From: Pedobacter sp.
GTDB taxonomy: Bacteria; Bacteroidota; Bacteroidia; Sphingobacteriales; Sphingobacteriaceae
DNA: 12,327 bases
Direction: 5' to 3'
Assembly (NCBI GenBank): GCA_030149995.1
Contig: JASLGV010000224.1
Coordinates: 1 to 12,327 of the forward strand
This document shows positions 386 to 11,122 of the stretch, one piece after another. Below the pieces are notes generated by a model. The model made no database searches. It saw nothing but the letters and a program-made list of their open reading frames with translations, and had not been told where the DNA came from. The position numbers and the translations under genes were made by a program. Each line of letters starts with the position of its first letter. Position 1 is the stretch's first letter.

Positions 386-859
386 TTAAATCTTTGTTAA
401 CGATTTATTTAAACCATCTTTCGAATGCTGAACCCAGTTAAGTACCTCCTGTTTTTCCATCACACTTAAAACAGCGCTTCTATGCATTCGTATGTAAGAA
501 GACAGCGGCATGCTACCAGCTTCTAAACTATTTTCTATTGCCTGTAATTTACTCTGCTGCCTTCTGGCTTTATATGTTCCGAATTCATTGAAATTCAGTT
601 CTTCTTTACCTGCCTTTACATGTGCCTCTATAAACCAACCCAAAGGTTGTATGTACGCATACCAGCGATAATTGGTATGGTTGCTGTGGCAATCGTAACA
701 GGCCCTTTTCAAAATTCCTTGTACCTTATCTGGCATGGCAACTACTTTAGAGATGTCGTTCGGAACAACCTGCCCACTTGTATTACGAGCAGGTTGTACA
801 AACTGGATCATTAAAAAAATGGCCAATAACCCTGTAAGGATTATTTTTACGCCGCTCAT
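386..859 (-). CDS. Haem-binding domain protein, membrane-anchored, CxxCH
   Basis: The product is a 157-residue exported protein. Residues 6-20 form one hydrophobic segment, probably an uncleaved N-terminal anchor, followed by a periplasmic domain. A single c-type haem attachment site, CYDCH, is at residues 54-58. It is followed by SNHTNYRWYAYIQP and GWFIEAHVKAGK, the pattern of the Bacteroidota haem-binding domain family (Pfam Haem_bd). The frame is open further upstream (to 895), but I chose the ATG at 857-859. The longer form would overlap the previous gene and add a charged, non-signal N-terminus; the chosen start leaves a 5-base gap after that gene's stop. Direct biochemical roles for the family are poorly known, and a small electron-transfer cytochrome is the natural reading. 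Lying between DUF3347 genes and a multicopper oxidase, it may serve periplasmic redox chemistry connected to copper; that link is inference. Confidence 0.85.
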   Translation of the reverse strand: MSGVKIILTGLLAIFLMIQFVQPARNTSGQVVPNDISKVVAMPDKVQGILKRACYDCHSNHTNYRWYAYIQPLGWFIEAHVKAGKEELNFNEFGTYKARRQQSKLQAIENSLEAGSMPLSSYIRMHRSAVLSVMEKQEVLNWVQHSKDGLNKSLTKI

Positions 860-864
860 GGTCT

Positions 865-1437
865 TTATTTTATTTCTTCCTGAACGGTGCCACATGCAGG
901 CATGGCTTTTCCAAGATAAGGATTTTTAATTTTCTGCTCTTCACTTAACCAGATGGCACCTTTGTTGTTATTATACATCGGGCAATGATCTACATATAAA
1001 GGTTTATCTGTACCCATTAGTTTAACCAGATCATAAATATCTTTGCTCAACAGCTCAAAGTGTTCGCGCTGGTGCGCAATGTTTCCGGTATTGGCACCAA
1101 TATGTTCGGCATGTTCTTTGGCATCATCGTAAATATCTTTATAAACTTTTTCCTGTGCCGGTGTTAAGGATTTGTAGTCAAAACGGGCAAATTCAGTTAC
1201 CATTTCATTTCCGGCGGCAGCAGCATCACGGTCGTTATCAATGGTAAAGGCATTTTTTAATTTAAGATATGCATTTAATATCCCCGAAACAGAAGTACCT
1301 TTTGCCGAAGTTGCGGAAGCCACAGACCCCGTTATTGCCGGGTTGGCCGAACCAGGACTTTGTGTTTTATTATTGCCACCAAAACATGCGGCCAAAAAGA
1401 GTAAGGAAAAGGCCAGGCTATAGATTAATATTTTCAT
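865..1437 (-). CDS. DUF3347 lipoprotein (copy 3)
   Basis: The product is a 190-residue lipoprotein. The signal peptide ends in the lipobox LAAC, so Cys18 would be lipidated and the protein held in a membrane facing the periplasm. A low-complexity Ser/Ala/Thr linker (about residues 22-50) leads into the DUF3347 domain. That domain has an N-terminal helical part (LNAYLKLKNAFTIDNDRDAAAAGNEM) and a C-terminal Cys/Met module: CPM at 152-154, WLS, IKNPYLG, M179 and CG at 182-183. The domain has no established function. It recurs beside, and sometimes fused to, CusB-type adaptors in Bacteroidota, which points to periplasmic metal binding. The cysteines and methionines are plausible Cu(I) ligands, which is inference. 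This is one of three copies in the window and the only one with Leu instead of Phe in NPYxG. The next gene follows after 5 bases, so they are co-transcribed. Confidence 0.88.
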   Translation of the reverse strand: MKILIYSLAFSLLFLAACFGGNNKTQSPGSANPAITGSVASATSAKGTSVSGILNAYLKLKNAFTIDNDRDAAAAGNEMVTEFARFDYKSLTPAQEKVYKDIYDDAKEHAEHIGANTGNIAHQREHFELLSKDIYDLVKLMGTDKPLYVDHCPMYNNNKGAIWLSEEQKIKNPYLGKAMPACGTVQEEIK

Positions 1438-1566
1438 TGTTCTTTATTTAAAGTGCCATACCAGCAGTATACTGTGCATTGCGTTACGGCTATATTTTAT
1501 TAATTAAATCAAAAATGCTTCATACAGGTCAGGTTTTCAGACAAAAGCTGTACAAAAACTAAAGAA

Positions 1567-2055
1567 TTACTTTAATGTTTCTTTTACTGCTCCGCAGGAT
1601 AACATTTGCTTACCGAAATAAGGATTTTTAATTACAGCCTGTTCAGAAAGCCAGTAACTCTTTTTCATAGGGCAGTAATCGTAATAAATGGGTTCTTTAC
1701 TGAGCTTCACAATTTTAGCCAGTGCAAAAAGGTTTGATGAAAAACTCGCAAAATAAGTTCTCTGTTGTGCAATATCCTGGGTTTCTGCAAGGTGTTTCGC
1801 ATCTGTTGCAAGTGCATGCTGAACATCTATCCAGGCTTTCATGTCTGCCTGCGGCAAACTTTTCATATCTATGCTGCCCAGGGCTTTTGAAAATTCATTT
1901 GCCTGGGTCGAGGCAGCGGCGGCATCACTGTTTACCAGTGCATCTTTAATGCCATAATAAGTCTTTAACAAATTTTGGGTCTCGCTGCTTTGTGCAAATC
2001 CGGGTTTAATCCATATTGTTACGATAAATGCAACCAATAAAAATATCTTTTTCAT
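1567..2055 (-). CDS. DUF3347 periplasmic protein (copy 2)
   Basis: The product is 162 residues long and exported by an ordinary signal peptide (about residues 1-21, ending GFA before QSS). It has no lipobox Cys, so unlike its two paralogues it should be soluble in the periplasm. Almost all the rest is the DUF3347 domain: LLKTYYGIKDALVNSDAAAA at the start, then the C-terminal module CPM at 128-130, WLS, IKNPYFG, M151 and CG at 154-155, ending VKETLK. It lacks the four-residue D/N-K-G-A insertion found between CPM and W in the other copies. The function is unknown; a copper chaperone or scavenger is the likeliest reading from the context and the conserved Cys/Met residues. It lies 113 bases after the His-rich gene and 129 bases before the next DUF3347 gene, all on the same strand. 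Confidence 0.88.
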   Translation of the reverse strand: MKKIFLLVAFIVTIWIKPGFAQSSETQNLLKTYYGIKDALVNSDAAAASTQANEFSKALGSIDMKSLPQADMKAWIDVQHALATDAKHLAETQDIAQQRTYFASFSSNLFALAKIVKLSKEPIYYDYCPMKKSYWLSEQAVIKNPYFGKQMLSCGAVKETLK

Positions 2056-2168
2056 GATGTAATCAATTTAATGTGTGGGTAATTCTTAGACACAGTTTCT
2101 CTGTGCCGGTTCATAATTATTCTGCTGCGATGCGCTTAAATGCTGCTCACCGCCTTTTACATTAAATT

Positions 2169-2594
2169 TTATATCTGAAAACTCCGAATGCGGATGCGAA
2201 TGTCCTGATTGGCCACATGTGCCCTTGTACCTGCACCAACCACCCGCATAAGCGTACCTTCGGCTGCCCGGATGGGCAACACATAAGCATAATCCGGCAG
2301 CCACATAACAGGTAAAACAAGTTCTGCTTTACCGGCCTCAGGCAGTAACTTGCTTTGGGTAACAAGATCGTTTACAAGCACTTTACAGCAAAGATCCTGC
2401 TCAGCATAACGGAGATCTGACACAGCACCAGCCTGGTGCTGGTGCAGTTGTACATGGTGATGCATAGAATGAGCTGTTTCCGGATGGTTATGGTTTATTC
2501 CATGTTTATGTGTTTCCATGCTTATTACACAGCCAAACCCAACAATGGTATGAAGCAAAAATATCACCAATAAAAAAACAGCTTTACTTTTCAT
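2169..2594 (-). CDS. Small His-rich secreted protein with CC motif
   Basis: The product is 141 residues. An N-terminal hydrophobic segment (about 5-21) acts as signal or anchor and is followed by Cys22, which fits a lipobox only poorly (GFGC). Residues 29-53 hold ten histidines (29, 31, 35, 37, 42, 45-47, 51, 53), an obvious divalent-metal ligand cluster. C69 and C70 follow in the stretch AEQDLCCKVLVNDL, and the protein ends DIRIRIRSFQI. I recognise this as a type of small Bacteroidota protein found in metal-resistance loci, resembling the HYC_CC_PP-type secreted proteins in layout, but I cannot assign an enzymatic role. Binding or buffering of metal ions in the periplasm is inferred from composition. 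It is the first gene of operon 2: a consensus -7 element lies just upstream, and the neighbouring gene behind it ends 138 bases away with a hairpin between them. Confidence 0.75.
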   Translation of the reverse strand: MKSKAVFLLVIFLLHTIVGFGCVISMETHKHGINHNHPETAHSMHHHVQLHQHQAGAVSDLRYAEQDLCCKVLVNDLVTQSKLLPEAGKAELVLPVMWLPDYAYVLPIRAAEGTLMRVVGAGTRAHVANQDIRIRIRSFQI

Positions 2595-2601
2595 GACAAT
2601 T

Positions 2602-2609
2602 CAAATTTA
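2602..2609 (-). promoter_or_regulatory. Candidate -7 promoter element (TAAATTTG) for operon 2
   Basis: On the minus strand this reads TAAATTTG, an exact match to the Bacteroidota -7 consensus TAnnTTTG. It lies 7 bases upstream of the ATG of the His-rich gene, so transcription would begin almost at the start codon, giving a very short or absent leader. A -33 TTTG at the usual distance is not evident; a TTG occurs at a shorter spacing. An 8-base motif can arise by chance, but no other match exists on this strand in this gap. Confidence 0.35.
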
Positions 2610-2631
2610 CCACAAGCACCTGCCAACCGGC

Positions 2632-2663
2632 TTATATAATTCTTTTTAATTGTTATATAATTC
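2632..2663. repeat. Direct repeat TTATATAATTC x2, 21 bases apart (candidate operator)
   Basis: The 11-mer TTATATAATTC occurs at 2632-2642 and again at 2653-2663, with exactly 21 bases from start to start, which is two helical turns. Each copy contains the palindromic core TTATATAA. The pair lies 38-69 bases upstream of the His-rich gene, beyond its -7 element, where an activator or an upstream repressor could bind. The AT-rich sequence makes a chance origin possible. No metal regulator gene is in this window to pair with it. Confidence 0.4.
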
Positions 2664-2684
2664 CAGTTAACAAGCAGGCAACCA

Positions 2685-2712
2685 GCGCTGTTATAAATCA
2701 ATACAACAGCGC
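2685..2712 (-). terminator. Inverted repeat after operon 1, possible terminator
   Basis: GCGCTGTT at 2685-2692 and AACAGCGC at 2705-2712 form a perfect 8-base-pair stem with a 12-base AT-rich loop. It starts 20 bases past the stop of the DUF3347 gene at the end of operon 1. No T-run follows it on the minus strand, so it is not a classical intrinsic terminator. It could instead act as a 3' stabilising hairpin or a weak terminator. Its position fits the boundary between the two metal operons. Confidence 0.4.
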
Positions 2713-2732
2713 CAGAAATGGTACAAATTTGA

Positions 2733-3275
2733 TTACTTAATGGTTTCTTTTACGCTGCCGCATGTTAACATGCTTTCTCCGAAATAGGGATTGCGGATTT
2801 CCTTGCTGTTGCTTACCCAATCAGCTCCTTTATCATGTAAAGCCATTGGGCAGTGTGCAACAAAAAGTTCGCCACTTTCCAGGCCTGTTTTTTTCAGCAT
2901 GGCAATAAATTCACGGTTCAGCGCGGCAAACGTTGCTCTTTGCGATTCGAGTTTTTTATCTTCGGTAATCCGGGCGGCAGCACGTTCCAAAGCGGTACCA
3001 CCCTCGAGTTGCTTCGCACCGATTTCAATGGCCGAGGCCGCCACTTTTGCTTCAGCGGCATCGCCATTGATAAGTGCCGTGGTTAAATGATTGTAGTGCG
3101 GATATACTGCATTCAACTGATCGTTTTTCAAAGTCACCGCAGTGTTTTTTGAGGCACTTACCACCTCCTGATGGTCGTGCCCTTCGTGGTCTTCTTCTGG
3201 TTTTAAATGGTTGCTGCATGCGGCCATCAGTCCTGCCGCTGCCAATAAAAAAATACACTTTACGCCTGTTTTCAT
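2733..3275 (-). CDS. DUF3347 lipoprotein (copy 1), last gene of operon 1
   Basis: The product is a 180-residue lipoprotein with the lipobox MAAC (Cys20), so it should be membrane-anchored facing the periplasm. Just after the anchor it has a short metal-ligand-rich stretch, EEDHEGHDHQE. The DUF3347 domain follows: a helical N-terminal part (LNAVYPHYNHLTTALINGDAAEA) and the C-terminal module CPM at 142-144, DWVS, IRNPYFG at 160-166, M169 and CG at 172-173. The gene begins 25 bases after the stop of the second CusB-type adaptor and clearly belongs to the pump operon. It may hand metal to the adaptor or pump, or bind it before export; that is inference, since the family has no established function. 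Of the three copies in the window, only this one sits with the pump genes. Confidence 0.88.
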   Translation of the reverse strand: MKTGVKCIFLLAAAGLMAACSNHLKPEEDHEGHDHQEVVSASKNTAVTLKNDQLNAVYPHYNHLTTALINGDAAEAKVAASAIEIGAKQLEGGTALERAAARITEDKKLESQRATFAALNREFIAMLKKTGLESGELFVAHCPMALHDKGADWVSNSKEIRNPYFGESMLTCGSVKETIK

Positions 3276-3300: not shown

Positions 3301-4518
3301 TTACATTTTCATTTCTGACATGGGATTTTTGCCTTTTTTGAGGATATACTCGCTATACAGCAAATAAGCACCACTTATCACCACGCGGTCGCCGGCTTTT
3401 AACCCCGCCTTAATTTCTACCGCATCAAAACTTTCCAAACCGGTCTTTACCATTTGTGGTTCAAACGTGCCCTTCGATTTTTCGATCCATACATGTGCCC
3501 CTTTACCATCCCGGATCACCGCATCAACCGGAAGGCTCATAACACTGCCTTTACTGCCTGTGGGTACAAATACATTGGCCTGTAAACCTGGCTGCCACTG
3601 ATTGTTTGGATTGGGAATGGAGCCCCTTAGCTGGATAACCTGTGAACCGGCATTCAGCTCAGGATTGATAAACTTTACGGTCATCATTTGCGGCTGATCT
3701 TCCCAGCCGTTAACCACTACTTTAAGCTGCTGTCCTTCTTTTATGCTTCCGGCTTCTGAAGGATAAATATCAGCCTCAACCCATAAAGACTGGTAACCTT
3801 CCAGGCGCATCAGCGCTGTTCCTTCTGCTACATACTGGCCTTCTGTTACCGGAAGCTCGGCCACCGTACCCGTTGCAGGTGCTGTAAACGTAATATAGGG
3901 GTCTGTTTTTTTTACGGAACCAAGCTTACTGATCTGACTTTCGGATTGACCGTAAAGGCTCAGTTTTTGTTTAGATGATTTCAGTAAGCTGATAAAAATC
4001 TGGTCGTTCGGAAATTGAGCCACCTGCTCCAAAGCCAGCAAGTATTCATTTTGAAGGGTAAGCAGCTGCTCTGAATAGATCTTGTATAAGGGGCTTCCTT
4101 TTGTAATCCGCTCGCCGGTTTGGCGCACATACAAACGTTCCAGTCTGCCGGCCACCCTGCTCGATATATACGCTGTTCCATCCGGGTTAACCACCAATCG
4201 CCCATTCAGCTGTTTATAAGTTTCAATCCCATTTAAACCGATGGTTGCCGTACTGATATTTGCCAAAGCCATTTGGCTTTCGTCGAGGTTTAATCCCGCC
4301 TGTGCGGCATTTTTTTCAAAAGGAACCAGATCCATGCCGCAAATCGGGCAGCTACCGGGTTTATCCTGTACAATTTGTGGGTGCATTGGACAGGTATACG
4401 TCTGGATTTTACCATCGGCTTTTTTTCCTGTTTTATCCCCACCGGTGCAGGCCGCAACAAACAAAGAAGGCATTAACGCTGCAATTGCAAACTTCCTGAT
4501 GAATTCTTTTCTTTCCAT
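3301..4518 (-). CDS. cusB: CusB-type RND periplasmic adaptor with heavy-metal-binding domain
   Basis: The product is a 405-residue membrane-fusion lipoprotein with lipobox VAAC (Cys24). Residues 41-66 are a heavy-metal-binding domain with the pattern CPMHP (43-47) and CPICGM (57-62), which supplies Cys, Met and His ligands. The adaptor core follows: the first lipoyl half (ISSRVAGRLERLYVRQTGE), a helical hairpin (LTLQNEYLLALEQ...), the second lipoyl half (FTAPATGTVAELPVTEGQ), a beta-barrel, and a membrane-proximal domain ending at LLYSEYILKKGKNPMSEMKM. CusB adaptors link the inner-membrane pump to the outer-membrane channel and receive or deliver Cu(I)/Ag(I). The ATG at 4516-4518 has a good Shine-Dalgarno sequence, GGAGA, inside the end of the preceding gene, whose stop is only 4 bases upstream. 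This is the second of two adaptors in the operon. Confidence 0.93.
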   Translation of the reverse strand: MERKEFIRKFAIAALMPSLFVAACTGGDKTGKKADGKIQTYTCPMHPQIVQDKPGSCPICGMDLVPFEKNAAQAGLNLDESQMALANISTATIGLNGIETYKQLNGRLVVNPDGTAYISSRVAGRLERLYVRQTGERITKGSPLYKIYSEQLLTLQNEYLLALEQVAQFPNDQIFISLLKSSKQKLSLYGQSESQISKLGSVKKTDPYITFTAPATGTVAELPVTEGQYVAEGTALMRLEGYQSLWVEADIYPSEAGSIKEGQQLKVVVNGWEDQPQMMTVKFINPELNAGSQVIQLRGSIPNPNNQWQPGLQANVFVPTGSKGSVMSLPVDAVIRDGKGAHVWIEKSKGTFEPQMVKTGLESFDAVEIKAGLKAGDRVVISGAYLLYSEYILKKGKNPMSEMKM

Positions 4519-4522
4519 TTGA

Positions 4523-5728
4523 TTAATCTCCTTTGTTTTGTGTTTTTATAAAACTTTCACTGTCGATGAGGTAGTAGGCATTGCCGGCTATTTCCCAGCC
4601 GCTCAGCTCTTCCAATACCTGAATCTGGTTGTTTTGTGTTATGCCGGTTTTTACAATTTGAGGTATAAAAACTTTACCTGTCTTTTTAAAAACAACCGAC
4701 TGGTTTCCGGTAGAAAGTACTGCTTCTTTTGGTAACCAGTATCCGCTTTTGGTTAGAAATGGAAACTGACCGGTTACGAGTTCGCCAACCTGCAGCCCGC
4801 CTTGAGGCAGGTAAACCCGTGCCAGTACAAAATTCTCACCTGCATTAAATACAGGTTGTATCAGCCCGATTTTTCCGGTTGTACTTTCTTCTTTATGAGC
4901 TGTTCTTTCTATAATCACTTTTGCATCCTTACCCAATTGCGAGGCAACTTCTGGTGTAAGTGAAAATTCTGCCACCAGGTTTCCTTTGCGGTAAATCGTA
5001 AAAATATTCTGCCCGGCACTCAGGTATTGACCTTCGCGCAGCAACACCGGCGAATTTGCCAATGTGGCACCAGACTGTGCAACAGGTACATCTCCAGCCG
5101 AAGCCATCTCATCCATACCTGCTGAAACCGCCGATGGTGGCATTGCAGTTGTTTGTACCGGACCTGACGAAGTTTGTTTTTCCAGGATATATCCGTTTGC
5201 ATTGCTGTAAACAGGTATTCTGTATAAAATCTGTCCGGTACGGATCAGGTTGTTAATCTGAGCCGGATTCATCCCCAGCAGCATTAACTTTTGCCGGGCA
5301 GGTCCGAGCATCTGATCCTGGTTTCCCCCGCGTTGTATCATCAGCAATTCGCGCTGTGCAGCCGCCAGATCGGGCGAGTATAATTCCAGGATCAGCTGGC
5401 CTTTTTTAACCTGCTGATAATTGTATCTGATGTACAGTTTCTCGATACGTCCGGAAACACGGCTGGCCAAAACAACCTGGTTTCGTGTATCGTAAGTTAC
5501 CCTGCCCTGTACTTCACGTACGTAGATGCCCGATCCTTTCTTTGCCTGTATGGTGGGCACATTCGCAACCACCTGCTCGTTTACAGGTTTTACCAGATCA
5601 TTCAGACTTGTATCTCTTTTTGCGTGTGTGCCGGCAGTTGAATGGTTTTCTGTTTTTTTGTTCTGACAAGCGACCAGCCCTGCTACGGTCAGGAATATGA
5701 ACAGCCTAACGATATAATTCCTTTTCAT
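4523..5728 (-). CDS. CusB-like RND periplasmic adaptor, first of two
   Basis: The product is a 401-residue adaptor (membrane-fusion) lipoprotein with lipobox LVAC (Cys21). Unlike its downstream neighbour it has no Cys-rich heavy-metal-binding domain. The recognisable parts are ASRVSGRIEKLYIRYNYQQV (first lipoyl half), an alpha hairpin (SPDLAAAQRELLMIQRGG), a second lipoyl region at about YSNANGYILEKQTSSG, and a barrel with VIIERTAHKEE. A loop of roughly 45 residues (from SSGPVQTTAMPPSAV to NSPVLLREGQ) interrupts the second lipoyl part and carries several Met. The start was set at ATG 5726-5728; a TTG two codons earlier is less likely. The first 23 bases overlap the end of the TolC-type gene in another frame, which implies translational coupling. 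The role is to bridge the CusA-type pump and the outer-membrane channel. Having two non-identical adaptors suggests a mixed ring or a division of labour, which is not provable here. Confidence 0.88.
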   Translation of the reverse strand: MKRNYIVRLFIFLTVAGLVACQNKKTENHSTAGTHAKRDTSLNDLVKPVNEQVVANVPTIQAKKGSGIYVREVQGRVTYDTRNQVVLASRVSGRIEKLYIRYNYQQVKKGQLILELYSPDLAAAQRELLMIQRGGNQDQMLGPARQKLMLLGMNPAQINNLIRTGQILYRIPVYSNANGYILEKQTSSGPVQTTAMPPSAVSAGMDEMASAGDVPVAQSGATLANSPVLLREGQYLSAGQNIFTIYRKGNLVAEFSLTPEVASQLGKDAKVIIERTAHKEESTTGKIGLIQPVFNAGENFVLARVYLPQGGLQVGELVTGQFPFLTKSGYWLPKEAVLSTGNQSVVFKKTGKVFIPQIVKTGITQNNQIQVLEELSGWEIAGNAYYLIDSESFIKTQNKGD

Positions 5729-6953
5729 AATCAACCATCATTTGATATAACTTCATTTTTTCGTCCAGTACCGTATTCTGCATCATAACCAGTGCTTCCC
5801 AGGAACTGATTACGGCCGGGAGTTGCAGTTTATTCTCCTGATAATTCAGGAAATCGGCATCCATTGTCTTTTTCAGTGCCGGTACAATGGTCTCTTCCAT
5901 CGCGGCAATTCTTTTCTTCATGGAGCCAATTTCGTACTGCATCCCATAAAGCATGCCCTGGGTTTCCTGCAGCATACCTGCCCGTTCTTTTTCCATTGCC
6001 TGAATTTCGTAATCCATGGCTTTAACTTCCGATTTGTACATTTTTGAAGACCATGGCGCAATCGGGATGCTAATCATCCCCATTAAACTGTAAGCCTGGG
6101 GCATCATTTTGCTCAAGGGCGACATGTGGTCAAACCGGATCTTAAAATCAGGCTTTGCCTGTGCTTTCATAGCGGTTATGCCCAGTTTCATCGAACGGAT
6201 GTTTTGTTCCATCTGTAAAATGTCTTTACGCTTATCGGCAAGAGAAGCAGTATCGAGTGTACTTTCGGTATAAAAATCAGGTGTAAAAAGCGTATCAATC
6301 TGGAGTGCCTGATTACCAGGCAAGTTCATCAGGCTGTTGAGCCAGGCTTTTGCTTTTGCAATATCACCCTGCTGCATCCGAATCATGTTCCGGTTCTCTT
6401 CTATCCTGGCATCGGCCCTGAATACACCCGACAGCTGAGATTGATTGTAAGGATAACGGATCTGCTCAATCTTTTTCACCATTTGCATAATTTTGTCGCT
6501 TTCCTGTAACACTTTTATGCGCTGACTGGCTACAATCCAGGTATAATACAAACGCTTTGCCTGCGCTTTTAAATCGTTTAATGCAATATCTTTTCCGGTT
6601 AGCTCAACGATCGCTTTCGATTCTATGTAGCGCTTTTGTGCCTGCTGCCTGGCAGGATTGGGGATTTCCTGTTCCAATTGAAACATAATCGAGCCCTTAT
6701 CGCGCTGATCCATAGTTTCGGCTCCGGGATAGGGTGTCATAAAAGTTCCTGCTCCAACCATTGGGGCCATCCAGGCTGTTCCTGCTTTTGCCTTATGCTT
6801 AAAGCTCTCTGCTTTTAGCGCATAGGTTTGCAGCAAAAGATTGTTCCGTTCAATCCGGCTCAGAATGGTATCTAAACTTACCGGACGCTGTTGTGCCAAA
6901 AGCTGAAAAGGCATAAGCACCAATAGTATTCCAATTTTTTTAATGATGCACAT
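5706..6953 (-). CDS. TolC-family outer-membrane efflux channel, Met-rich (CusC role)
   Basis: The product is 415 residues with a signal peptide (MCIIKKIGILLVLMPFQLLAQ). It has the repeated long alpha-helical, coiled-coil architecture of TolC-family channels: two halves of helix pairs, for example KRYIESKAIVELTGKDIALN and SEVKAMDYEIQAMEKERAGM. It would trimerise in the outer membrane and form the exit duct of the tripartite pump. It is unusually rich in methionine, with about 34 of 415 residues. An ATG at 6972-6974 is also in frame, but the ATG at 6951-6953 has a strong GGAGG seven bases upstream, so that start is preferred. This start overlaps the end of the pump gene by 14 bases, and the 3' end overlaps the next adaptor by 23 bases, giving a tightly coupled operon. 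Confidence 0.92.
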   Translation of the reverse strand: MCIIKKIGILLVLMPFQLLAQQRPVSLDTILSRIERNNLLLQTYALKAESFKHKAKAGTAWMAPMVGAGTFMTPYPGAETMDQRDKGSIMFQLEQEIPNPARQQAQKRYIESKAIVELTGKDIALNDLKAQAKRLYYTWIVASQRIKVLQESDKIMQMVKKIEQIRYPYNQSQLSGVFRADARIEENRNMIRMQQGDIAKAKAWLNSLMNLPGNQALQIDTLFTPDFYTESTLDTASLADKRKDILQMEQNIRSMKLGITAMKAQAKPDFKIRFDHMSPLSKMMPQAYSLMGMISIPIAPWSSKMYKSEVKAMDYEIQAMEKERAGMLQETQGMLYGMQYEIGSMKKRIAAMEETIVPALKKTMDADFLNYQENKLQLPAVISSWEALVMMQNTVLDEKMKLYQMMVDYEKELYR

Positions 6954-8877
6954 CGTGTACCTCCAGTTTTCCATATTTCTTTAATTCATATTCTTTCGAC
7001 ATCAAAAAGATGAGCGGTGTAACCAGTAAAATATGCGTAGATGAGGTTAAAACCCCTCCAATCATAGGAAGTACAATTGGTTGCATCACATCCGATCCCA
7101 CACCGGTAGCCCATAAAACCGGTATCAGGCCAAAAAGAGACACACATACCGTCATCAGTTTAGGACGTAACCGTTTGGCAGCACCTCTGATTACGTACTC
7201 CCGAAGATCTTCTTTGGTAATGGTTTCGCTCGAATTGCCTTTCAGCTTAATCAGTTGGCCCATGGCATCATTTAGGTAGATAACCATTACAATACCGGTT
7301 TCTACAGCAATTCCAAACAACGCAATAAAGCCTACGGCAACAGCTACAGACAGGTTAACACCCCAGAAATAGATGATGTAAGCGCCTCCTATTAAAGCAA
7401 ACGGAACTGTAATCAGACTTAAGAAAGCTTCTCTCAGCGATTTAAAAGCAAAGTACAGGGAGAAAAATATAACCAAAAGCACAATCGGCGCAATCCACAT
7501 CAGCGTTTGCTCGCCTCGGATCAGGTTTTCATACTGACCGCTCCATTCCAGAAAATAGCCTTCGGGCAGTATACCATTGCTTTTATTTAGCTTATCGATG
7601 GCTTCCTTAACGGTACTGCCCAGGTCCCGGTCTCTTACGTTAAACATCACCGCGCCTCTTAGCAGGGCATTTTCAGAATTAATCATTGGAGGGCCATCTT
7701 CAAAACGGATATCGGCTACAGCAGACAATGGGATTTCGCCCATGCTGGCTGATTGTACGGGTATTCGCCTGATGCGTTCCACACTGTTTCTGAATTCTTG
7801 TGCCAACCGCACGCTGATGGAAAAACGCTGACGGCCTTCGATGGTATTTCCAATGGTGGCACCGCCTAAAGCCGTTTCAACGGTCTGGTTAATATCGTCT
7901 ACTGTTAATCCGTAACGGGCCAGTTCGGCACGTTTTACATCAATGGATAAATATTTGCCACCGGTAATGGGATCTACATATAAATCACTAATACCTTTGG
8001 TTCCCTCCAGTGCCAGCTTTACCCTTTCTGATACAGCTGCCAGCGTATCGAGGTTCTGACCAAAAACCTTAATCCCCACATCTGTACGGATACCAGTTGC
8101 AAGCATATTGATCCGGTTGATGATCGGTTGTGTCCAACCGTTAACCACACCCGGGATCTGAAGTTTTTTATCCAGCTCGTTGATGATGTCTTTTTTGGTT
8201 ATTCCTTTGCGCCATTCTGTTTTGGGTTTCAGCATAATGATCGTTTCAATCATGCTGATGGGCGAGTTATCGGTTGCGGTGCTGGCACGCCCGGCTTTTC
8301 CCAAAACCTTGTCTACTTCGGGTACAGATTTGATGATTTTATCCTGTACCTGTAAAATGCGCTTTGCCTCATTATTCGATACATCGGGCAAGGTAACAGG
8401 CATAAAAAGAATGCTCTGCTCATCCAGTGGTGGCATAAACTCGCTCCCCAGGTTCTTTAACAACGGAATGGTAATTAACAAAGCAAGGATGTTTACAGCA
8501 ATGGTTGTTTTGCGCCATTTCAGTACTGTCCTGATAACAGGCTCGTAGTATCTCTCCAGAAACCTGTTTACCGGGTTGGCATTGTCTGGTCTGAATTTAC
8601 CTTTCATAAAAAAGGAAATTAAAACCGGTGCCAGTGTAAGTACCAGCAGGGCATCTACAATCAGAATAAATGTTTTGGTATAAGCCAGCGGATGAAATAA
8701 CTTCCCTTCCTGTCCGGTTAACATAAACACCGGCAGGAAAGAGGTTATAATAATCACCGTAGCAAAGAATACCCCTCTCGATACCTGTTTACTGGATCGC
8801 TCAATTACCTTCAACCGTTCTTCTTCAGATATCCAGCCGGGTTGTTTTTTAAATATTTTTTTAAACCAGGTTTTCAT
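6940..8877 (-). CDS. cusA: CusA-type RND pump, C-terminal part (TM5-TM12) of a split gene
   Basis: The product is 645 residues, corresponding to E. coli CusA from just before TM5 to the C-terminus. The metal-relay methionines are present: M159 (FMPVTLP), M209 (SPISMIET) and M258 (NRINMLATG). Their spacings of 50 and 49 equal those of M573, M623 and M672 in E. coli CusA. The proton-relay Glu (AVETGIVM, residue 526) and Lys (RLRPKLMT, residue 573) are conserved, as are the second porter domain and TM7-TM12. The start is the ATG at 8875-8877, which overlaps the stop of the N-terminal ORF as ATGA. The new N-terminus is a basic, amphipathic linker (MKTWFKKIFKKQPGW) followed by SEEERLKVIERSSKQVSRG, the usual pre-TM5 sequence. 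The Shine-Dalgarno is weak and A/G-rich only. It may be a separate subunit translated by coupling, or half of a frameshifted gene. Confidence 0.85.
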   Translation of the reverse strand: MKTWFKKIFKKQPGWISEEERLKVIERSSKQVSRGVFFATVIIITSFLPVFMLTGQEGKLFHPLAYTKTFILIVDALLVLTLAPVLISFFMKGKFRPDNANPVNRFLERYYEPVIRTVLKWRKTTIAVNILALLITIPLLKNLGSEFMPPLDEQSILFMPVTLPDVSNNEAKRILQVQDKIIKSVPEVDKVLGKAGRASTATDNSPISMIETIIMLKPKTEWRKGITKKDIINELDKKLQIPGVVNGWTQPIINRINMLATGIRTDVGIKVFGQNLDTLAAVSERVKLALEGTKGISDLYVDPITGGKYLSIDVKRAELARYGLTVDDINQTVETALGGATIGNTIEGRQRFSISVRLAQEFRNSVERIRRIPVQSASMGEIPLSAVADIRFEDGPPMINSENALLRGAVMFNVRDRDLGSTVKEAIDKLNKSNGILPEGYFLEWSGQYENLIRGEQTLMWIAPIVLLVIFFSLYFAFKSLREAFLSLITVPFALIGGAYIIYFWGVNLSVAVAVGFIALFGIAVETGIVMVIYLNDAMGQLIKLKGNSSETITKEDLREYVIRGAAKRLRPKLMTVCVSLFGLIPVLWATGVGSDVMQPIVLPMIGGVLTSSTHILLVTPLIFLMSKEYELKKYGKLEVHDVHH

Positions 8878-10172
8878 AACTCTTGTGTCTTTTCTTGTTC
8901 TTGTTGCCACTGTTCGTACCGTTCTGCCAGGTGTTTATAAGCATTTTCGCTCATCACAATTCCATTGTCTACAATAACCCCTATTGCCAGTGCAATACCG
9001 GTTAGCGACATAATGTTTGAAGAGATGTTAAATGCATCGAGCAGGATAAAACTGGTGGCAATGGTTATCGGTATCTGGATGATGATGCTCAGCGCACTGC
9101 GCCAGTGAAATAAGAAGATGATAACCACCAGTGATACCACAACCATTTCTTCGATAAGTGTATTTTTAATGGAGTCTACCGATTCCTGGATCAGCTGACC
9201 CCTGTCGTACACAATATCAAACTTTACACCCGCCGGTAAACCTTTGGATATCTCTTTCATTTTGGCTTTCACATTCTTGATAACCTCGGCTGCATTTTCG
9301 CCATAACGCATCACCACAATTCCACCAACACGCTCCCCTTCGCCGTTTTGATCAAAGATTCCAAGCCTGGTTTCGCCGGTCATCTGTACCTTAGCCACGT
9401 CTGATACGCGAATGGGCGTACCATTTTGATTTTTAACCGGGATATCGCCAATCTCCTGAAGCGATTTCAGGTAACCGGACGTTTTGATGATGTACCCGAT
9501 ATCGCTCATTTCAAATTTCCGTCCGCCCGATTCATTGTTGTTGGATCTGACGGCTGCAATAACTTCTGGTACCGTTAACTTGTAATACAATAACTTATTC
9601 GGATCCAGTGCAATCTGATATTGTTTTTGAAAGCCGCCAAAAGAGGCAATTTCACTCACGCCCGGCACATTCTGTAATCCAAATTTCACATACCAGTCCT
9701 GGATGGCGCGCTGTTCGCCTAAATCTGTGTTCGGGGCATTCAGCGTATACCAAAGAATGTGTCCTACGCCTGTACCATCGGGCCCGAGTTGCGGAGAAAC
9801 ACCTGTGGGTAATGCCCGGCTTACCGTACTTAATCTTTCCAATACACGCGCTCTTGCCCAATACACATCCACATTATCTTCGAAAATGACATAGATAAAG
9901 CTCATTCCGAACATGGAAGTTGCTCTTACATATTTAATTTTAGGCAATCCCTGCAGGTTTGTAACCAGTGGATAGGTAACCTGGTCTTCTATTAACTGCG
10001 GCGATCTGCCCATCCATTCTGTAAATACGATGACCTGATTTTCTGAAAGATCCGGTATGGCATCGATGGGGTTTTTCTTAACAGCCAGTACGCCCCAAAC
10101 AAACAAACCTGTTGCCAGCAGCAACACGATCCAGCGGTTTTTGAGCGACCATTCTATAATTTTATGTACCAT
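8874..10172 (-). CDS. cusA: CusA-type RND pump, N-terminal part (TM1-TM4) of a split gene
   Basis: The product is 432 residues matching the first part of a heavy-metal RND pump: TM1 (NRWIVLLLATGLFVWGVLAV), the first porter domain (PIDAIPDLSENQVIVFTEWMGRSPQ and GPDGTGVGHILWYTL), then TM2-TM4. TM4 ends GVIVDNGIVMSEN, carrying the proton-relay Asp at residue 402 (E. coli CusA D405). The ORF stops 30 residues later in a Gln/Glu-rich cytoplasmic tail (YEQWQQEQEKTQEL), whereas single-chain CusA proteins continue to about 1040 residues. The remainder is in the adjacent -1 frame. The ATG at 10170-10172 was chosen because it gives the normal RND N-terminus; an in-frame ATG ten codons upstream lies inside a hairpin. 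The gene starts 47 bases after the HMA chaperone gene. Alone this fragment lacks the metal-binding pore and cannot pump, so it needs the second ORF or a frameshifted read-through product. Confidence 0.85.
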   Translation of the reverse strand: MVHKIIEWSLKNRWIVLLLATGLFVWGVLAVKKNPIDAIPDLSENQVIVFTEWMGRSPQLIEDQVTYPLVTNLQGLPKIKYVRATSMFGMSFIYVIFEDNVDVYWARARVLERLSTVSRALPTGVSPQLGPDGTGVGHILWYTLNAPNTDLGEQRAIQDWYVKFGLQNVPGVSEIASFGGFQKQYQIALDPNKLLYYKLTVPEVIAAVRSNNNESGGRKFEMSDIGYIIKTSGYLKSLQEIGDIPVKNQNGTPIRVSDVAKVQMTGETRLGIFDQNGEGERVGGIVVMRYGENAAEVIKNVKAKMKEISKGLPAGVKFDIVYDRGQLIQESVDSIKNTLIEEMVVVSLVVIIFLFHWRSALSIIIQIPITIATSFILLDAFNISSNIMSLTGIALAIGVIVDNGIVMSENAYKHLAERYEQWQQEQEKTQEL

Positions 10173-10192
10173 TTTATTTTTATCAAAGCCCT

Positions 10193-10214
10193 GCACCCGC
10201 ATACGGGGTGCGGG
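10193..10214 (-). promoter_or_regulatory. GC-rich intercistronic hairpin with two alternative stems
   Basis: In the 47-base gap between the chaperone gene and cusA, GCACCC (10193-10198) pairs with GGGTGC (10206-10211). Alternatively, CCCGCA (10196-10201) pairs with TGCGGG (10209-10214). Both stems are perfect over 6 base pairs with 7-base loops, and they share bases, so only one can form at a time. It is markedly more GC-rich than its surroundings. It could stabilise one side of a processed mRNA, attenuate entry into cusA, or be a stray repeat unit; I found no second copy in the window. Confidence 0.4.
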
Positions 10215-10219
10215 ATGGG

Positions 10220-10579
10220 TTAATGATTCTGATCTGCCTTTACTGATTTACTTTCACGCTCGTATTTGCAGCAATCGTGAAGTTTTGAATATGCGGCGTC
10301 TGTGGCTTTGAAATTGGGGGTATCGTGCCCCGCAGCAGCAACCATTTGCTCCACCTGGTTCAGGTTCAGTTTTGCAGCATCGTAACGAAGGGTTAGCAAT
10401 TTCGTTTTTACATCATACTCTGCTGCTGTAATACCGGGAACTTTCAGGGCTGTTTCGATGCGTTGTTTGCACATCCCACAATTGCCCGATACTTTAATGC
10501 GATCTGTTTTTGACTGTGCAAATACAGCACTGCCCAACATGGTCAATACGACCACTGCGAAAAATCTAAATGATTTCAT
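10220..10579 (-). CDS. Periplasmic heavy-metal-associated (HMA) domain chaperone
   Basis: The product is 119 residues with a signal peptide (about 1-21, ending SAVFA before Q). Residues 26-90 are a single HMA domain of the ferredoxin-like Atx1/CopZ fold. The metal-binding loop is NCGMCKQRIE, with Cys34 and Cys37 as Cu(I) ligands, followed by ALKVPGITAAEYDVKTKLLTLRYD. After the domain come His101 and Cys103-Cys104 (KLHDCCKYE), a likely extra metal site at the C-terminal end. Unlike cytosolic CopZ it is exported, so it should bind Cu(I)/Ag(I) in the periplasm and pass it to the adaptor or the CusA-type pump whose gene follows. It lies in the same orientation between the HYC_CC_PP gene and cusA. 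Metal identity is inferred from context. Confidence 0.9.
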   Translation of the reverse strand: MKSFRFFAVVVLTMLGSAVFAQSKTDRIKVSGNCGMCKQRIETALKVPGITAAEYDVKTKLLTLRYDAAKLNLNQVEQMVAAAGHDTPNFKATDAAYSKLHDCCKYERESKSVKADQNH

Positions 10580-10676: not shown

Positions 10677-11072
10677 TTAAATTCGATAAGCGCAGTTGCG
10701 GATAAAGAGATGGGTATCTTCTACCGATGGGGGTGCATTGCTCAAAGACGCCTTGCCCGTTTCAACCGGGATGGCAACATGCACAGCAAAACTGGTTTGC
10801 TTCGGATACAGAACCACCGCAACCTGCTCAAACTGAAAATTGTTTGGATATACTTTTTGCGATTTATCTGTCTTAACGAGTTTATAGTCGTCTTTACAGC
10901 AGGATTTTTCGCAAGTTTTTTTAGGACTGCTACAAAGGGTACAACCACCTTTATCAGACAGCCCAATGCCCAGTTTTACAAGCTGCCCCATGCAATAATG
11001 AAAGCGCACAACAGCCCCGCTGGATGTACCAACGTACAGTAAAATCAATAAAAGGACTGTAATCTTTTTCAT
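10677..11072 (-). CDS. HYC_CC_PP-family small Cys-rich secreted protein
   Basis: The product is 131 residues starting at the ATG at 11070-11072; an in-frame start six codons upstream would only lengthen the signal peptide. Residues 1-20 are a signal peptide (MKKITVLLLILLYVGTSSGA). The family signature is present in order: HYC at 25-27 (followed by MG), C44 and C47, C54, CC at 58-59 in KSCCKDD, and a late NAPP at 112-115. One more Cys (C127) is near the end. I recognise this as the Bacteroidota HYC_CC_PP family, which has no defined biochemical function. Seven cysteines plus the HYC motif suggest metal binding or disulfides in the periplasm. It is the first gene of operon 1, with a consensus -7 element upstream and the HMA chaperone 97 bases downstream, suggesting metal buffering or sensing. 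The functional reading is inference. Confidence 0.82.
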   Translation of the reverse strand: MKKITVLLLILLYVGTSSGAVVRFHYCMGQLVKLGIGLSDKGGCTLCSSPKKTCEKSCCKDDYKLVKTDKSQKVYPNNFQFEQVAVVLYPKQTSFAVHVAIPVETGKASLSNAPPSVEDTHLFIRNCAYRI

Positions 11073-11122
11073 GGTTAAACCAACATGCACTAAAATTTAG
11101 CGTATTGCTAAGGGATTAACCG

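Follow-up and report, generated by a model that had tools for sequence, protein, structure and literature searches.

The 12,327-nt contig JASLGV010000224.1 of Pedobacter sp. (assembly GCA_030149995.1; hereafter the window, taken at its full length) encodes on its minus strand a CusA-type permease of the resistance-nodulation-division (RND) family in the form of two open reading frames (ORFs), denoted A for the N-terminal and B for the C-terminal part. RND permeases are usually drawn as one chain of 12 transmembrane (TM) helices with an internal proton relay. The two ORFs of the window are very probably two real genes, the products of which co-assemble as natural subunits of one Cu(I)/Ag(I) RND permease. 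Judged from the sequence comparisons presented here, the split is old and shared by many Bacteroidota, and is neither a broken gene nor a sequencing error; it appears to have arisen once, in the cytoplasmic loop after TM4, in an ancestor of a Bacteroidota CusA branch, and to have been undone once.

An earlier note on this DNA, made from the letters alone, had described a CusA-type pump as two ORFs with an ATGA overlap in the loop after TM4, and coordinates, frames and profile matches all agree with that description. The stop codon of A (TGA, 8876..8874) and the start codon of B (ATG, 8877..8875) belong to different frames, with ATGA common to both. On PF00873 (length 1021) A covers positions 1-425 and B positions 417-1019, and on TIGR00914 (length 1051) the corresponding ranges are 1-431 and 432-1036; neither half reaches the curated cut-off of the latter model (701.45 bits), A scoring 464.8 and B 618.7 bits. 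The 12 TM helices and both porter regions, usually carried by one chain, are here distributed over two ORFs of 442 (or 432) and 645 amino acids (aa). A is 442 aa long when read from 10202 and 432 aa from the second ATG at 10172, and the latter is probably the true start, since the best-listed A relatives are mostly 432 aa long and cover 97-98% of the query. The relay Asp is residue 412 counted from 10202 and residue 402 from 10172, and the Asp402 named in the earlier note is thus correct given the second start. Predicted masses are 49.5 kDa for A (from 10202) and 72.0 kDa for B. The best PDB matches by sequence are CusA entries for both halves (A, E 1e-124; B, E 2e-162), which are 46% (A) and 41% (B) identical to E. 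coli CusA and together span nearly its whole length. The two ORFs part after TM4, near position ~431 of TIGR00914 and near CusA-aligned residue ~430; the boundary between TM4 and TM5 is placed by aligning the halves with CusA, and hydropathy and AlphaFold2 (AF2) models agree with it roughly and at low confidence.

The corresponding organisation was observed throughout the best-listed relatives. The best-listed 120 B relatives and 120 A relatives, each list containing the window's own copy, consist entirely of free-standing halves, with B proteins of 642-671 aa (109 of them 645 aa), 88-96% identical to the window's B when its own copy is set aside, and A proteins of 429-445 aa, mostly 432 aa. 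A separate A also lies upstream of B in all 80 genome loci, and the alignment with close relatives that had been proposed as a check finds the split kept in every locus and in both lists. The same break recurs in 100 other distinct adjacent pairs, and for this reason is not due to chance. Four relatives display 84-93% amino-acid identity as compared with 74-79% DNA identity; the non-synonymous divergence (dN) is 0.05-0.11 and the synonymous divergence (dS) is saturated or above 4, saturation affecting six of the eight comparisons, with dN/dS given for two only (0.018 and 0.026). Two B proteins (L008, P0109) carry a longer N-terminus, 671 aa in total, which by eye resembles a partly repeated leader.

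Genome searches with B were run with four candidates scored per genome (up to 10 in the order of G204) and strict E limits, and absences in them are weak. Among 296 Bacteroidota genomes, 46 had a B match at E ≤ 1e-200, split in 18 genomes (23 matches) and single-chain in 28 (28 matches). All 23 split matches scored at least 786 bits in frames of 643-728 aa and contained no internal stop, and all 28 single-chain matches scored at most 744 bits in frames of 1031-1100 aa; none of the 46 genomes held both kinds among the only four candidates scored in each. Within the order of G001, 100 of 300 genomes gave a B match at E ≤ 1e-226, and 106 of the 109 matches were located in frames of 632-735 aa and three in frames of 1051-1067 aa. 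The order of G204 gave a B match in 2 of 123 genomes. A TIGR00914 search found, among the matches listed, at least one split pair together with at least one single-chain CusA/CzcA paralogue in each of 12 genomes. Many of these single-chain paralogues sit in open frames of ~1450 aa, exceeding the usual length by some 400 aa, and the additional stretch may be an outer-membrane-factor part.

The PLSDB gene table likewise enters the two halves as separate coding sequences (CDS) on plasmids of Runella and Hymenobacter, each half having a protein accession and the label 'efflux RND transporter permease subunit', for instance on pRUNSL02, which is typed as conjugative. A total of 3250 plasmid records match B at E ≤ 1e-100, 12 of them at 60-80% identity, and all 12 are filed under Bacteroidota genus names. 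The pump and its operon were also encountered in a metagenome-assembled genome titled Williamsia, which is not a member of the Bacteroidota (L068); this is probably a mislabelled bin.

The junction was compared over 101 adjacent A/B pairs, distinct by DNA key and including the window, with some pairs stemming from one genome in tandem; L093 and L097 (from G204 and G220, where no adjacent A was found) and a B truncated at the end of L073 were left out. The spacing is −14 nt in 11 pairs, −8 in one, −4 in 42 (the window included), −1 in one and +1 to +12 nt in 41, and exceeds 12 nt in five (83, 196, 230, 307 and 686 nt, one each). Three frame relations occur, in 66, 28 and 7 pairs, the last class having both ORFs in the same frame with a stop between them. 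The start picked for B was ATG in every pair, by a picker that favours ATG. Fifteen further loci outside this set gave 14 spacings (eight of −4, three of −14 or −17, and one each of −1, +4 and +19; L155 gave none). Spacing and frame vary freely while the A and B ORFs both remain open. The 307- and 230-nt gaps belong to two Pedobacter genomes (L021:5691-6000 and L047:5768-6000), and no ORF above 64 aa is listed in them. In four loci (L111, L112, L117, L135) two unlike A/B pairs, ~55-60% and 66-80% identical to the window, stand in tandem or close together.

In three genomes other genes lie between the halves. The 686-nt gap, from Chitinophaga japonensis (L017), holds an intact 219-aa ORF with a Methyltransf_11 match (7e-21; L017:5316-5975), and A and B are both intact around this inserted methyltransferase-like gene. 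In G204 and G220 there is no A just upstream of B; A is instead found 3.6-3.9 kb downstream of B, in the order B-OEP-MFP1-MFP2-A (loci L143 and L144; OEP and MFP are the outer-membrane and adaptor genes of Table 1), so that the N-terminal half comes last, preceded in G204 by a 78-aa protein with a heavy-metal-binding domain (HMBD). The key residues are the same as in the other split pumps. Halves placed in this way are beyond the reach of frameshifting or read-through, and the pump of G204 and G220, if working, must therefore consist of two chains.

Phylogenetic trees were built from alignments of 136 A and 138 B rows (123 and 127 without identical rows), the first pair using 53 A and 55 B rows. 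In both, all split rows fall on one side of one branch (support 97 for A and 99 for B). In the B tree the split branch is sister to a group of single-chain Bacteroidota CusA proteins of 1049-1051 aa (support 85), and in the A tree the relation between these, E. coli CusA and the split branch is unresolved. Because CusA is joined by long branches and the bootstrap of the second B tree described next had not fully settled, the exact sister is less sure than the unity of the split branch. The second trees (48 A and 50 B rows, 48 of the latter different, some newly added) were rooted on E. coli CusA, and each requires two changes, namely one fission and one re-fusion common to G430, G500 and G687, the single-chain rows of which are nested inside starred split groups.

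The residues expected of a copper and silver pump are retained across the two chains. Alignment places M159, M209, M258, E526 and K573 of B on M573, M623, M672, E939 and K984 of E. coli CusA, and the relay Asp of A on D405; the five B positions given in the earlier note were confirmed in the B sequence. We take D405, E939 and K984 to be the proton relay of CusA. M573, M623 and M672 are named as the Cu(I)/Ag(I) methionine triad in PMC11213822. The relay Asp is conserved in 94 of 94 A rows and the five B residues in 98 of 98 B rows, as they are in all 13 single-chain CusA-type rows (12 from Bacteroidota, and E. coli CusA); the five occur together in none of 16 single-chain CzcA-type rows. Because they are common to the CusA-type rows and together in no CzcA-type row, the split pump is assigned to the Cu/Ag type. 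In 20 later loci, two of which repeat genes already counted, the three Met and the Glu were present in all 20 and the Lys in 19.

These data bear directly on the alternative accounts of the break. A sequencing error or strain-specific mutation, in which the natural gene would consist of one ORF that was interrupted artefactually or by recent damage, has a practically negligible probability. The two frames do lie one step apart, as observed in the earlier note, which had offered the loss of a single base as its alternative, and single-chain CusA occurs in Bacteroidota and, within the split branch, in three genomes. However, all 80 loci and the best-listed 240 proteins (the window's own two included) show the split, none of the B relatives being one ORF; spacing and frame differ between lineages, so that no shared error could produce the split; and identity is kept at the protein level while synonymous sites are saturated. 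The single-base loss is consequently not upheld. It is also extremely improbable that a programmed frameshift or stop read-through normally joins both ORFs into one chain. Such joining would fit the overlapping or nearly abutting ORFs of most lineages and the one frame relation seen in 66 of 101 pairs, but not the three frame relations, the gaps of 83-686 nt, the gene between the halves in L017 or the reversed order with three or four intervening genes in G204 and G220. A canonical slippery site was not seen by the reader of the earlier note, and no separate motif search was made; the doubt expressed there about programmed frameshifting is borne out by the varying frame relation. A programmed frameshift gene, with a fixed frame and adjacent ORFs, was thus rejected as a candidate, on frames divided 66/28/7, gaps of up to 686 nt and two genomes with reversed order.

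That the locus is a decaying pseudogene, with one half or neither still functional, appears just as remote. Single-chain CusA/CzcA paralogues in all 12 genomes searched could cover for a lost pump, and one genome (G323) is without the relay Lys; on the other hand, the key residues do not vary across the 94 A and 98 B rows, among the genes compared A and B are the most conserved in all 80 loci, and the 23 split B matches are free of internal stops. Lost residues, further stops and relaxed constraint were not observed, with the exception of the missing Lys of G323, and the pseudogene was set aside. It is very unlikely that a single-chain ancestor was split repeatedly and independently at this one loop, which would make the three nested single-chain genes original forms and not products of re-fusion. 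The loop of G430, G500 and G687 is short like that of ordinary CusA, and the loop is tolerant of breaks; still, both trees need two changes only, the single-chain rows lie within split groups, and a history lacking re-fusion would probably call for several independent fissions in this loop.

Several observations nevertheless weigh against a two-chain pump, or against parts of that description. AlphaFold models of the single halves are poor, with mean pLDDT values of 62.5 and 67.7 from 32-row alignments; Foldseek places CusA first for both A and B with these models, but at a root-mean-square deviation near 12, and no geometry was drawn from them. One internal stop was counted in 2 of 22 A matches (G162 and G166), in open frames of 434 and 428 aa, a normal A length, and is probably the regular stop codon of A, past which the alignment ran. 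The return of G430, G500 and G687 to one chain reveals that the split is not required, and in G323 (L154) B has Phe in place of the relay Lys, the other key residues being kept. A small amount of fused product may be compatible with the ATGA junction of the window itself, and the proposed metal specificity derives from residues and gene neighbours only.

The predicted two-chain permease is encoded as part of a larger minus-strand operon (Table 1) in the order Cys-rich protein, heavy-metal-associated (HMA) domain protein, A, B, OEP, MFP1, MFP2, DUF3347 proteins and haem-binding-domain protein. The pump genes are hence encoded together with an outer-membrane factor and periplasmic adaptors, as in RND systems. 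Gene-order comparison with the window's proteins showed A-B followed by OEP in 80 of 80 loci, MFP1 in 78 (the two misses being the short loci L043 and L050) and MFP2 in 76 (the four misses being the short loci L003, L043, L050 and L069). The HMA protein was found in 39, the Cys-rich protein in 57 and a DUF3347 protein in 64 of the 80. Identities to the window's proteins are 73-90% for A, 79-93% for B, 43-81% for OEP and 34-71% for the adaptors; in every locus A and B are closer to their window counterparts than the other compared genes are to theirs. Past the pump genes, at 386-3275, the window contains three different DUF3347 proteins and one haem-binding-domain protein, and DUF3347 recurs in related loci.

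Table 1. Features of the split pump and its operon in the window
Feature	Position	Strand	Content
ORF A, N-terminal part of CusA-type RND permease	8874..10202	-	TM1, first porter region, TM2-TM4, relay Asp
ORF B, C-terminal part of CusA-type RND permease	6940..8877	-	TM5-TM12, second porter region, methionine triad M159/M209/M258, relay E526 and K573
ATGA, overlap of A stop codon and B start codon	8874..8877	-	
Outer-membrane efflux protein OEP (CusC/TolC type)	5706..6974	-	PF02321, E 4e-15
Periplasmic adaptor MFP1	4523..5734	-	HlyD_D23 and CusB hairpin domain HlyD_D4
Periplasmic adaptor MFP2, CusB-like	3301..4518	-	HlyD_D23, N-terminal heavy-metal-binding domain (HMBD), CusB model
HMA domain protein, upstream of A	10220..10579	-	PF00403, E 1e-9
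Small Cys-rich protein, upstream of pump genes	10677..11090	-	Without Pfam match
DUF3347 protein, downstream of adaptors	2733..3275	-	Family match

From the two conserved ORFs, the one fission and one re-fusion, the separated or rearranged halves, the residues and the operon, we infer a working model of assembly, stoichiometry, substrate, proton path and translational coupling. One RND protomer would be formed jointly by A, with TM1-4 and the first periplasmic porter region, and by B, with TM5-12 and the second such region, and three A-B pairs would build the usual trimer, probably (AB)3. The pump would export Cu(I)/Ag(I) together with the adjoining outer-membrane channel and the two adaptors, the metal passing through the methionine triad of B, and the proton relay would be divided between the chains, with Asp in A and Glu and Lys in B. 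The ATGA overlap probably couples the translation of A and B in the window. Two adaptors per protomer would agree with the 3:6 composition that PMC6316836 gives for RND metal pumps. The earlier note had called a two-polypeptide pump conceivable, and the conserved halves, varying junctions, gene between the halves and reversed order all lend support to it. A further, though unlikely, possibility is that in genomes with two or three A/B pairs, sometimes in tandem as A-B-A-B, halves of unlike pairs mix into hybrid protomers, and that the split, accompanied by two unlike adaptors, yields a modular pump in which each half has its own adaptor.

A literature search among open-licence PMC papers found no account of a split CusA. 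A survey of HME, HAE and NFE pumps discarded RND hits under 852 aa (PMC10872679), and at this cut-off both halves would be excluded. CusA-like proteins are reported in Bizionia (PMC11213822) and CusCBA systems are counted in Mucilaginibacter (PMC6316836), and in the accessible text of neither does the word 'split' occur. In some sources the halves carry the names of different pumps, 'CusA/SilA' for B and 'CzcA family' for A. The split halves thus lie in databases unremarked, as two CDS in PLSDB, and of the two-chain CusA apparently the parts are known and the whole is not described; length-filtered surveys and split naming constitute a blind spot that would hide a two-chain pump. The relay Asp and its Glu/Lys partners reside on different proteins, an arrangement kept in many Bacteroidota, the halves having moved apart at least once and been rejoined at least once. 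This offers a natural system for testing how the two parts of an RND permease fold and associate and how proton flow is coupled to export.

The window pump resembles E. coli CusA of the CusCFBA system in sequence, in the residues D405/E939/K984 and M573/M623/M672, and in an operon with channel and adaptor. It differs in having two chains where E. coli CusA is one chain of 1047 aa, and in an operon with two different adaptors where that of E. coli has one CusB adaptor and CusF. The single-chain Bacteroidota CusA proteins (L099-L110, 1049-1051 aa) are 52-55% identical to the window pump, lie outside the split branch and carry the three Met, Glu and Lys in 12 of 12. Unlike the split pump, they comprise one chain, with one adaptor, located upstream, in each of seven neighbourhoods (L136-L142); no outer-membrane channel was detected beside them in these seven using the window's proteins as queries, by which distant ones may be missed. 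The re-fused genes of G430, G500 and G687 (L145-L147) are closer, with the order A+B-OEP-MFP1-MFP2, 69-72% identity and the key residues kept, but with A and B as one ORF of 1051-1067 aa joined by a short linker. SecD/SecF, an RND-fold transporter, is likewise made as two chains in many bacteria and as one in others. There the division lies between the two 6-TM repeats (6+6), whereas the window pump is divided unevenly (4+8) inside the first repeat; a SecD/SecF-type division was rejected, the break being after TM4 and not between repeats. MdtB/MdtC (PMC7015380) is also an RND pump with two different inner-membrane subunits, but these are homologous subunits derived from gene duplication, and not pieces of one protein as A and B are.

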